From NCBI GenBank assembly GCA_003584005.1, contig QXHL01000016.1, positions 1-61,841 of the forward strand: a DNA stretch of 61,841 bases. Reading direction: 5' to 3'. Source of the stretch: Alicyclobacillaceae bacterium I2511 (GTDB taxonomy: Bacteria; Bacillota; Bacilli; Alicyclobacillales; Alicyclobacillaceae). Shown here piece by piece: positions 32,167-34,082 of this stretch. Numbering within the stretch: position 1 is the first letter of the stretch; each line of letters starts with the position of its first letter. The notes under the pieces are model-generated. The model saw nothing but the letters and a program-made list of their open reading frames with translations. It was not told the origin of the DNA and searched no databases. The position numbers and the translations under genes are program-made.

Positions 32167-32192
32167 ATCGACAATTCTATATTCAACGCCAT

Positions 32193-32431
32193 GAAGGAGA
32201 GAGTAAGCTGCAGGTACGGCCCAGAGATCCGACGGTAGGTGGGAGTCGGAGCGCACAAGCAGCCGAAGTTCACTCTAGAGCGGCCGGGTGAAGGTCTGTG
32301 CAACCTGTTCAGACTTGTAGCTTGCGCCGGTGACGCTGCAACGTCGCCGTTATCTCAACGAAGTCGAGGCAAATCTGCCTTCGATTAGGGTGGCACCGCG
32401 AGTCAACTCGTCCCTATGGGATGGGTTTTTT
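32193..32431 (+). promoter_or_regulatory. Phenylalanine T-box riboswitch, first platform
   Basis: A canonical T-box leader. Stem I holds AGAGAGTAAGC (AGTA element), distal CAGAGATCCGAC...GGTGGGAGTCGG, and specifier context GAA-G-UUC-A followed by CTCTAGAG. This places the specifier codon UUC (Phe) at 32269-32271, by alignment with the glyQS pattern GAA-A-GGC-A. The T-box sequence AGGGTGGCACCGCG is at 32387-32400. The terminator CTCGTCCC/GGGATGGG (32407-32414, 32418-32425) is followed by six Ts. Uncharged tRNA-Phe should favour read-through into aroF. The base expected to pair with the tRNA discriminator is C (UGGC), not the U that fits A73 of tRNA-Phe. Confidence 0.88.
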
Positions 32432-32486
32432 GTTTTCTCGTGTCAATATAGGGTGTCCTTTGATGAGAAGGATTGGCCTACGAATT

Positions 32487-32536
32487 AAGGGTGGTACCGC
32501 GGAGTCAACTCCGCCCCTAAGTGGGGCGGTTTTTTT
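32487..32536 (+). promoter_or_regulatory. Second T-box antiterminator/terminator platform
   Basis: AAGGGTGGTACCGCGG (32487-32502) followed by a terminator CCGCCCC (32511-32517) / GGGGCGG (32523-32529) with seven Ts. Only 55 bases separate it from the first terminator, so it has no Stem I or specifier of its own. Its UGGU bulge would match ACCA of tRNA-Phe. RNA that passes the first terminator must pass this one to reach aroF. Confidence 0.88.
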
Positions 32537-32640
32537 GTACTCTCTTGGCGGGGCTCCTGGTTAGCTTTAGCGATTCATGCGCATAAAAGCACAGCACAGA
32601 CGCGTATTGCGAGACAAACACCTGACAGACTTAAAGAGGT

Positions 32641-32678
32641 TGTCCGGAAAGGGGTCTGGTCAGACCCCTTTCCGGACA
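32641..32678. repeat. Perfect 18-bp palindromic arms before aroF
   Basis: TGTCCGGAAAGGGGTCTG (32641-32658) and CAGACCCCTTTCCGGACA (32661-32678) are exact reverse complements with a 2-base centre. Flanking bases TTAAAG and ACTTAAA add weak symmetry. No T run follows, so it is not a standard terminator. It could be a palindromic repeat element, an RNase III-type processing stem, or part of the aroF leader fold. The aroF ribosome site begins 20 bases downstream. Confidence 0.85.
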
Positions 32679-32714
32679 CAGACTTAAAACAATTTTTGGA
32701 GGGGGAGAGGCATC

Positions 32715-33740
32715 ATGAAAGTGATTCTCAAAGAAACAGCCGCACGTGGGTTGGCCCAAACGATTGTCAAAGGGGTGGAACAGGGAGGCGGGTCCGGCTA
32801 CATCCGTAAAGAGGGTAGGCACCTGATTATTGGCCTTGCAGGTCCACGCCACGCCGTTAATATTGAGCAAATCAAGGCGTTCGAGGGCGTAGAGGCGGTG
32901 GTTTCTTTGCATCATGCTTTTAAACTGGCAAGTCGGGAGTTCTGTGCGGATTCGACCGTGGTACAAGTGGGTAATGTGCGTGTCGGCGACGGCAATCCGG
33001 TGGTGATTGCCGGTCCTTGTTCAGTGGAAAGTCGTGCACAAATTCTCGAGGTTGCCCGTAAAGTGAAGGCGAGTGGGGCCCATATGCTTCGGGGTGGCGC
33101 ATTCAAGCCGCGGAGTTCTCCTTATAGCTTTCAAGGGCTGGCTGAAGTAGGATTAAAACTTTTGGTCGAAGCGCGTGAGGCAACAGGTTTGCCAGTAGTA
33201 TCCGAGGTAATGGACCCAATCACGTTACCCATGGTGGCGGAGTACGTGGATGTGCTGCAAATTGGAGCCCGTAATATGCAAAACTATCATTTGTTAAAAC
33301 AAGTGGGTAAAACCAACAAACCTGTGTTGCTGAAACGGGGTTTGTCTGCCACCATTGAGGAGTGGCTGATGGCTGCTGAATATATTTTAAGTGCAGGGAA
33401 CCCAAATGTTATTTTATGCGAACGCGGAATCCGCACTTTTGAAACTTACACGCGCAACACGTTGGATTTAAATGCAGTGCCTGTGGTCAAGGACCTCAGT
33501 CATCTGCCTGTCTTAGTGGATCCCAGCCATGGCGTGGGTATCGCCAAGTACGTTCCTGCAATGAGTATGGCCGCCATAGCGGCAGGTGCAGATGGATTAA
33601 TCATTGAAGTTCATTCAGACCCTGCCAGTGCCCTCTCGGACGGATCTCAGTCCTTGACCCCAGAGGTCTTTGCAAGGTTGATGCAGAGGTTGGCGTATTC
33701 AATGTTGGCGAGAGAAGAATCTGCCGTGGTCAATTCTTGA
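32715..33740 (+). CDS. aroF: DAHP synthase (3-deoxy-7-phosphoheptulonate synthase)
   Basis: A 341-residue type I-beta DAHP synthase. An N-terminal ferredoxin-like regulatory domain (about 1-70) precedes the TIM-barrel core with [47 protein letters not shown] and VDPSHGVG. It condenses erythrose-4-phosphate and PEP, the first step of aromatic amino acid synthesis. GGAGGGGGAGAGG precedes ATG 32715. The chorismate mutase gene follows 54 bases downstream. Control by the Phe T-box and two terminators upstream ties output to charged tRNA-Phe. Confidence 0.96.
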
Positions 33741-33794
33741 AATTTGGCTTAAACGAAAAAAGGGATGCAGTTCCATTTTCTTTTAGGAGGGATT

Positions 33795-34082
33795 ATGGTG
33801 GATTCTGACTGGCAACAACAATTGGACCACTTGCGCCAGCAAATTGACGAGTTGGACGAACACCTGTTAGCAATCTTGCGTGAACGGATGCAAATAGCCC
33901 TAGAGATTGCCCACATTAAGCAAGGTCTTGGTTTGTCTGTCCGCCAGCACGTCCGTGCTGAAGAGGTACGACGGCGCTACGCGGAACGTGGCCAGGGGAT
34001 GTTGTCGGAGGAGTTTTTACACAACTTGTATGCTTTGATCCACGAGGAAACTTGTCACCGGGAGGAAGAACAATCATCTTGA
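33795..34082 (+). CDS. Chorismate mutase, AroQ type
   Basis: A 95-residue all-helical AroQ protein: LDHLRQQIDELDEHLLAILRE (N-terminal helix, split here), the Arg/Lys pattern RMQIALEIAHIKQ, then VRAEEVRRRYAE and LHNLYALIHEE. It converts chorismate to prephenate, the branch leading to Phe and Tyr. In B. subtilis this domain is fused to DAHP synthase; here the two are separate genes in the same operon. ATG 33795 has AGGAGGG 4-5 bases upstream, preferred to the frame from 33765. The stop overlaps mutY. Confidence 0.92.
   Translation: MVDSDWQQQLDHLRQQIDELDEHLLAILRERMQIALEIAHIKQGLGLSVRQHVRAEEVRRRYAERGQGMLSEEFLHNLYALIHEETCHREEEQSS

Follow-up and report, generated by a model that had tools for sequence, protein, structure and literature searches.

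How can a T-box platform without a Stem I of its own read a tRNA, and why should the first of two platforms carry an acceptor bulge that does not fit the tRNA named by the specifier? Both questions are raised by a leader in the window, i.e., the whole stretch of 61,841 nucleotides of Alicyclobacillaceae bacterium I2511 (contig QXHL01000016.1) analyzed here. The leader matched the T-box model RF00230 at positions 32182-32418 of the forward strand with 103.2 bits (E 3.5e-23), exceeding the curated gathering score of 93. In the Rfam alignment, the specifier loop reads GAA-G-UUC-A, giving UUC (Phe) at positions 32269-32271 as the single specifier, as originally predicted, rather than a different triplet. 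This amino acid agrees with the genes presumably controlled downstream, aroF and chorismate mutase (Table 1).

Table 1. Features of the two-platform leader and of the genes that follow it, in window coordinates
Feature	Position	Strand	Details
Stem I/Stem II part of the T-box leader	32182..32360	+	RF00230 match
S5, purine string and single 5' strand of Stem III, AAGUCGAGGCA	32361..32371	+	
S3a, first 3' strand of Stem III, UGCCUUCGAUU	32376..32386	+	pairing with S5
T-box sequence 1, AGGGUGGCACCGCG (platform 1)	32387-32400	+	bulge UGGC at 32391-32394
Terminator 1	32407..32431	+	8 bp including two G-U, then U6; -10.5 kcal/mol
Segment V, between the gates	32432..32487	+	predicted pairing with S5 to platform 1, transcription at 32488
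S3b, second 3' strand for the same Stem III, GGCCUACGAAUU	32475..32486	+	
T-box sequence 2, AGGGUGGUACCGCG (platform 2)	32488-32501	+	bulge UGGU at 32492-32495
Terminator 2	32511..32536	+	7 G-C pairs, then U7
aroF, DAHP synthase	32715..33740	+	PF00793, 2.5e-85
Chorismate mutase type II	33765..34082	+	PF01817, 7e-19

The double T-box pattern has a single occurrence in the window and none in 100 shuffles, and a terminator-like hairpin with a U run follows each T-box sequence (3 sites, including two overlapping forms of terminator 2, against a shuffle mean of 0.6). The two 13-mers are separated by 88 nt, which is too short for a Stem I, and platform 2 thus lacks one, as predicted. The range given for platform 1 in the original prediction (32387-32431) was exact; a second platform does lie at 32487-32536, but that start is one base 5' of its T-box sequence. 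Both platforms can fold in two mutually exclusive ways, with -8.7 kcal/mol for antiterminator AT1 and -10.5 kcal/mol for terminator T1, and with -13.7 and about -16 kcal/mol for AT2 and T2, respectively. S5 and S3a form seven Watson-Crick pairs around one bulged base, and the last Stem III pair is 2 nt away from the AGGG of platform 1 and 4 nt from that of platform 2. One UUC Stem I, one S5, the strands S3a and S3b, two T-box/terminator platforms and a tRNA-Phe with A73 are apparent from the sequence, and we predict that the leader controls aroF and chorismate mutase as a Phe T-box that is transcriptional and partially tandem. Partially tandem T-boxes are taken here to have one specifier with more than one antiterminator/terminator. 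They were reportedly described by Vitreschak in 2008 and Gutierrez-Preciado in 2009. As stated in the original prediction, such partial duplications are known, and a review calls their mode of action unknown (PMC7583486).

The genome of this bacterium (3.48 Mb in 232 contigs, completeness 98.36, contamination 0.32) harbors 53 tRNA genes, two of which are tRNA-Phe(GAA), one encoding CCA and the other only C74. This tRNA-Phe, the only species found, was matched in 39 of 41 family genomes, the match being weak in two of the 39 (G005 and G021). The UGGN of a T-box pairs with the NCCA of the tRNA, as stated in PMC7583486 and PMC7778990. Because both tRNA-Phe genes have A73 and neither has G73, the UGGC of platform 1 sets a C against A73, while the UGGU of platform 2 fits, as had been anticipated. 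In the TBDB, the N position is Watson-Crick paired in the majority of leaders, and G-U pairs occur in 46 % of Trp leaders (PMC7778990); the C-A at bulge 1 is neither.

Two bulges sensing two different tRNAs, one with A73 and one with G73, had been considered in the original prediction, UGGC being able to pair with G73. The single specifier and the two A73 genes speak against this, as do the G73 tRNAs of the genome, which are those for Ser, Asn, Asp, Gln, Trp, and two for Arg, all with other anticodons. Furthermore, a pheS-like T-box of the same genome (L004) has a UUC specifier too but a UGGU bulge, so that we find this explanation barely credible. Among the six other T-boxes of this genome, whose genes were named by guessing from the specifier and the first residues of the reading frame, the bulge base is U in the ileS-like L002 and L003, in the pheS-like L004, and in L005, and A in the thrS-like L006, where it fits the U73 of tRNA-Thr. 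A Val-like T-box on the minus strand (L007, G000:C155:29754-29994) has the core AGGGGUACCGCGG without a normal UGGN and appears to be a decayed or variant T-box.

We searched 41 family genomes for AroF and 60 relatives for the leader. This family is probably Alicyclobacillaceae, as Alicyclobacillus contigs contain identical segments. The stretches read (platforms at most 230 nt apart) contained 26 distinct two-platform leaders, with UUC as the specifier in 19 and UAC in 7; the Stem I motif AG(A/T)GA was absent between the platforms in all 26. Since 25 related leaders share this layout, the second platform cannot stem from an assembly error. Their bulge bases are U,U in 25 of the 26, and C,U is private to the copy in the window. 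We used 24 of these leaders, from 21 genomes, further, leaving out those of G021 and G026. The next gene, named by eye, was AroF-like in 17 and chorismate-mutase-like in 4; G014, G027, and G030 gave no clear next gene, although G014 and G027 have AroF matches a short distance downstream. The only other genome of the genus (G001, 82 % complete) has a single AroF match, with 62 % identity. By eye, no recombination source for the C platform was found among the UGGC T-boxes of the family. In several leaders (L041/L244, L042, L224, L229, L232, and L235), a one-platform T-box stands upstream, and no more than about 310 nt after it comes a second specifier (UUC or UAC) with two platforms, so that a single aroF is preceded by three gates.

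We scanned 84,980 species genomes for pairs of T-box cores with a spacing of 70-100 nt and obtained at least 119 stretches, some of the listed ones being repeats in GC-rich genomes and not T-boxes. Among the matches listed, the first platform is followed by a U run in 102 platform pairs, of which 8 are copies of family members. The bulges are alike in 97 of these 102 and unlike in 5, namely, C,U in L095, L117, and L184 and U,C in L145 and L174; the switched base is thus as unusual as originally supposed. L164 is also C,U but falls outside the 102 pairs, being too near the locus end. RF00230 scored L095, L117, and L184 at 87.6, 93.4, and 91.1 bits (gathering 93) and aligned CUC (Leu) to their specifier, and ilvD/ilvB-like genes, named by eye, follow all three. 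L095 and L117 come from Chloroflexi metagenome-assembled genomes (MAGs), both with a tRNA-Leu(GAG) that has A73; in the genome of L184 the one tRNA-Leu seen, tRNA-Leu(CAA), has A73 as well. With C,U and A73 both in Chloroflexi Leu leaders and in the window, a first gate that mismatches A73 followed by a second that fits it has therefore arisen at least twice. This recurrence in two Chloroflexi loci and in L184 also bears on a base-call error at the C of bulge 1, which a draft in 232 contigs would permit; the high completeness and low contamination of the assembly argue against it as well, making such an error very unlikely.

In the family leaders, platform 2 is preceded by a second copy of the 3' strand of Stem III and not by a full Stem III. 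This had been overlooked in the original prediction: platform 2 comes without a separate Stem III, and a strand of the first one could serve it again. When the RNA was folded from S5 to the base before platform 2, S5 paired with S3b, not S3a, in 24/24 leaders, with a mean of 13.7 expected S5:S3b pairs compared to 2.2 with segment V shuffled (in this figure, segment V of G008, G020, and G027 included half a terminator). In the window, S3b is predicted to pair with S5 (32476-32479 and 32481-32483 with 32364-32370), with 11.7 expected pairs compared to 0.7 in shuffles, and 0 of 60 shuffles were as high. There, the UCGAGGC of S5 faces GCCUuCGA in S3a and GCCUaCGA in S3b, many relatives having GAAAGGC and GCCUUUU; S5, S3a, and S3b of the window have thus changed together. 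The S5:S3b pairs vary by compensating changes, with A-U, G-C, C-G, and U-A at several S5 columns, in helices that were picked per sequence and are therefore biased towards pairing. In the 24 leaders, S3b often pairs into the loop of Stem III too, a pairing beyond the reach of a simple duplicate of S3a. S3b could in part be a leftover of the duplication. S5:S3b outscored S5:S3a in 21/24 leaders, a rough comparison because the S3a windows were cut short.

The preference for S5:S3b was kept in 18/24 leaders folded to the end of the antiterminator, in 22/24 with the AGGG of platform 2 forced to pair, and in 16/24 folded to the end of terminator 2, with energies that leave out the tRNA, Stem I, and kinetics. 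The two leaders failing even with the AGGG forced to pair are that of the window and that of G006. Pairing of segment V with the T-box sequence of platform 1 was barely above shuffles, and in an alignment of 22 of the 24 leaders (without G023 and G002b) the S3b strands were not in register, so that this alignment supports no claim. In multi-platform leaders of Bacilli (Paenibacillus, Lysinibacillus, Priestia, plus L196 and L204), 9 of 14 later 3' strands fit S5 within 5 % of shuffles; in L112 and L194, with three platforms each, 0 of 4 later strands did.

These folds suggest a model in which a strand exchange in Stem III lets one bound tRNA be read twice, and for this two-gate model as a whole we put the probability at about one half. 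An uncharged tRNA-Phe on Stem I would be read first at platform 1, which would be put in place by the Stem III made of S5 and S3a. Once transcription has passed terminator 1, segment V would emerge and S3b would displace S3a on S5, and a long hairpin tipped by terminator 1 would sequester platform 1. Platform 2 would then stand beside the same Stem I and purine string, and the same tRNA would be reread before terminator 2. Such a serial double check could give a tighter and steeper switch than a single one.

We compared segment V with dinucleotide shuffles after removing the 8 copies of family members. The mean z was -2.62 in the 24 family leaders (17 below -2), -1.57 in the 85 others among the matches listed (33 below -2), and -0.36 in 38 single-platform controls (7 below -2), with Mann-Whitney p values of 4e-7 for the family and 2.5e-4 for the others among the matches listed, each against the controls. 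Similarly, the cognate head-V energy was -9.57 kcal/mol compared to -5.97 (sd 0.32) in GC-stratified swaps, and 0 of 5000 were as low; this test used 77 leaders, from among the matches listed and the family, unselected by class, thinned for similarity and with a V of at most 80 nt. The cognate ranked in the best 5 % in 26 of these 77 by row and in 33 by column. Two less suitable tests gave less. Wide-window duplexes, with windows too wide and little power, had a mean z of -0.48 over 102 rows among the matches listed (12 at or under 5 %) and were replaced by the later folds. Automatic Stem III finding succeeded in 102 of 117 leaders among the matches listed, with the wrong helix in the window's copy (percentile 0.41); 25 of the 102 reached 5 %, and 16 of 57 did so without the family and near relatives. 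Among single-platform UGGC leaders, L304, L306, L317, and L318 have a post-terminator sequence that pairs strongly with Stem III/platform 1 (z -2.0 to -4.1), and they may have second platforms with a diverged core.

To sort the leaders by simple cuts, we defined class A (shared Stem III) as at least 4 expected S5:S3b pairs and fewer than 2 within segment V, and class B as an own second Stem III. Among 109 multi-platform leaders, with the others from among the matches listed, 67 were class A, 26 class B, and 16 neither, so that strand exchange is not universal; the class means of z (-2.65 and -0.35) are descriptive only, because the class cut uses the same folds as z. In class A, platform 2 has only a second 3' strand. 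Besides transporter-like leaders with two to four platforms (Paenibacillus, Lysinibacillus, Priestia, L196, and L204), this class includes asnS-like Clostridium leaders with C,C bulges, Chloroflexi ilv-like, Pyramidobacter lysA-like, and the chorismate-mutase/aroF-like leaders L171 and L202, these genes being named by eye, as well as the aroF-like UUC leader L143 from Syntrophomonas. Eight aroF-like UUC leaders belong to class B; where named, they come from Syntrophomonas, Syntrophomonadaceae, or an unplaced Bacillota bin. The gates could then be independent of each other, platform 2 meeting the Stem I-bound tRNA through free space or in trans with no exchange at all. The complete second Stem III of class B, including Syntrophomonas aroF-like UUC leaders, would be in line with this, but the class A folds show no Stem III within V before platform 2, and segment V is fitted there to S5/platform 1. 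We thus regard independent gates as improbable for the layout seen here.

Eleven two-platform UUC leaders (L110, L114, L120, L123, L137, L170, L180, L191, L193, L199, and L203) have a second Stem III that seems complete; L110, L193, and L203 are in neither class and the other 8 in class B, and an aroF-like gene lies downstream where read. They may represent an independent route to the same layout. One Stem I with three or four platforms before a transporter-like gene was observed in L093 and L156 (Paenibacillus), L149 (Lysinibacillus), L160 (Priestia), L196, and L204.

The copy in the window is itself a weak case of the proposed exchange. By energy, its segment V is no better than shuffles (z -1.43 and -0.51), its cognate ranks at 0.42 and 0.20, and with 6.9 expected S5:S3b pairs and 2.3 within segment V it belongs neither to class A nor to class B. 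When the fold extends to the end of platform 2, S5:S3a is preferred again (-69.1 versus -64.7 kcal/mol), and S5:S3b is kept neither at the antiterminator end, nor with the AGGG forced, nor at terminator 2. In these models, the exchange is weakest in the window's own copy and is not predicted once platform 2 is transcribed. Its terminator 1 is also the weakest first terminator of the 24 leaders. Together with UGGC, this suggests a first gate that is loosened in this species, by the C·A73 mismatch and by the weak terminator; for the same reasons, platform 2, with its UGGU and strong terminator, is likely the deciding gate. The weak first gate of the original prediction could thus be right.

A stronger version would have the first gate decaying or fixed half-open, platform 1 being only a leaky attenuator and platform 2 alone sensing tRNA-Phe. 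The mismatch, the weak terminator 1, the lack of a predicted exchange once platform 2 is made, and the confinement of C,U to one of 26 family leaders would all agree with this. Nevertheless, platform 1 is intact in all conserved T-box positions, in helices A1/A2, and in its U run, and the concerted change of the three Stem III strands as well as the recurrence of C then U in Chloroflexi argue against it, making this version rather unlikely.

The two-gate model offers a lead for why a C occurs at bulge 1. In the fold before platform 2, the N base of bulge 1 pairs with segment V, as C-G in the window (0.76) and in L095, L117, and L184 (1.00). In 23 family U leaders, the bulge 1 base pairs with an A or G of segment V at 0.7 or above in 13, and this pairing is weak or absent in 10; the C-G pair is also found in several C,C leaders. 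It is possible, as far as these folds can tell, that the C was chosen to fit segment V.

The window leader resembles a typical T-box (RF00230) in its Stem I with specifier, Stem III, UGGN bulge, antiterminator/terminator, and position before amino acid genes, and differs in that two platforms follow one Stem I and the first bulge does not match the discriminator base. Its layout is that of the partially tandem T-boxes named in PMC7583486, to which it adds the unlike bulges and the proposed Stem III exchange. Fully tandem T-boxes (thrS and trp) also place two serial gates for one amino acid, but each gate has a complete sensor (PMC12452182). Strand-exchange riboswitches likewise use a switching strand with two mutually exclusive partners; there, the exchange is the ON/OFF decision (PMC10907184), whereas here it would shift the sensor to the next platform. 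A review sorts riboswitches by the numbers of aptamers and expression platforms (PMC9481103); compared with those, the ligand of the window leader is a tRNA.

The unit that senses aminoacylation consists of Stem III with its purines and the antiterminator (PMC7583486, PMC7778990). A second platform that would share the 5' strand of Stem III through a second 3' strand appears to be new; we found no description of such an exchange between T-box platforms in the accessible text of the openly licensed literature. It would be a concrete way for a gate without Stem I to use the sensor of the preceding gate, and a naturally occurring example of several expression platforms that share one sensor successively; the layout is seen in genomes of Bacillota, Chloroflexi, and Pyramidobacter. 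Tentatively, and with somewhat less than even confidence, we propose that multi-platform T-boxes, with up to four gates per leader among the matches listed, perform serial proofreading: one Stem I-bound tRNA would be passed from gate to gate, because every segment between platforms supplies a fresh 3' strand for Stem III, which replaces the previous strand and packs away the gate already used. If this is true, the first bulge base may be free to drift or to fit the retiring segment, as in the window and the Chloroflexi Leu leaders, which could explain why the bulge bases of early gates do not follow the discriminator rule by which T-box databases predict the tRNA partner.

Finally, the 5' UTR of aroF contains a palindrome with perfect 18-nt arms, TGTCCGGAAAGGGGTCTG and CAGACCCCTTTCCGGACA (window positions 32640-32680). 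The genome contains 29 copies of a 15-nt piece of the arm, which form a facing pair in five places, and the palindrome is an interspersed palindromic repeat.
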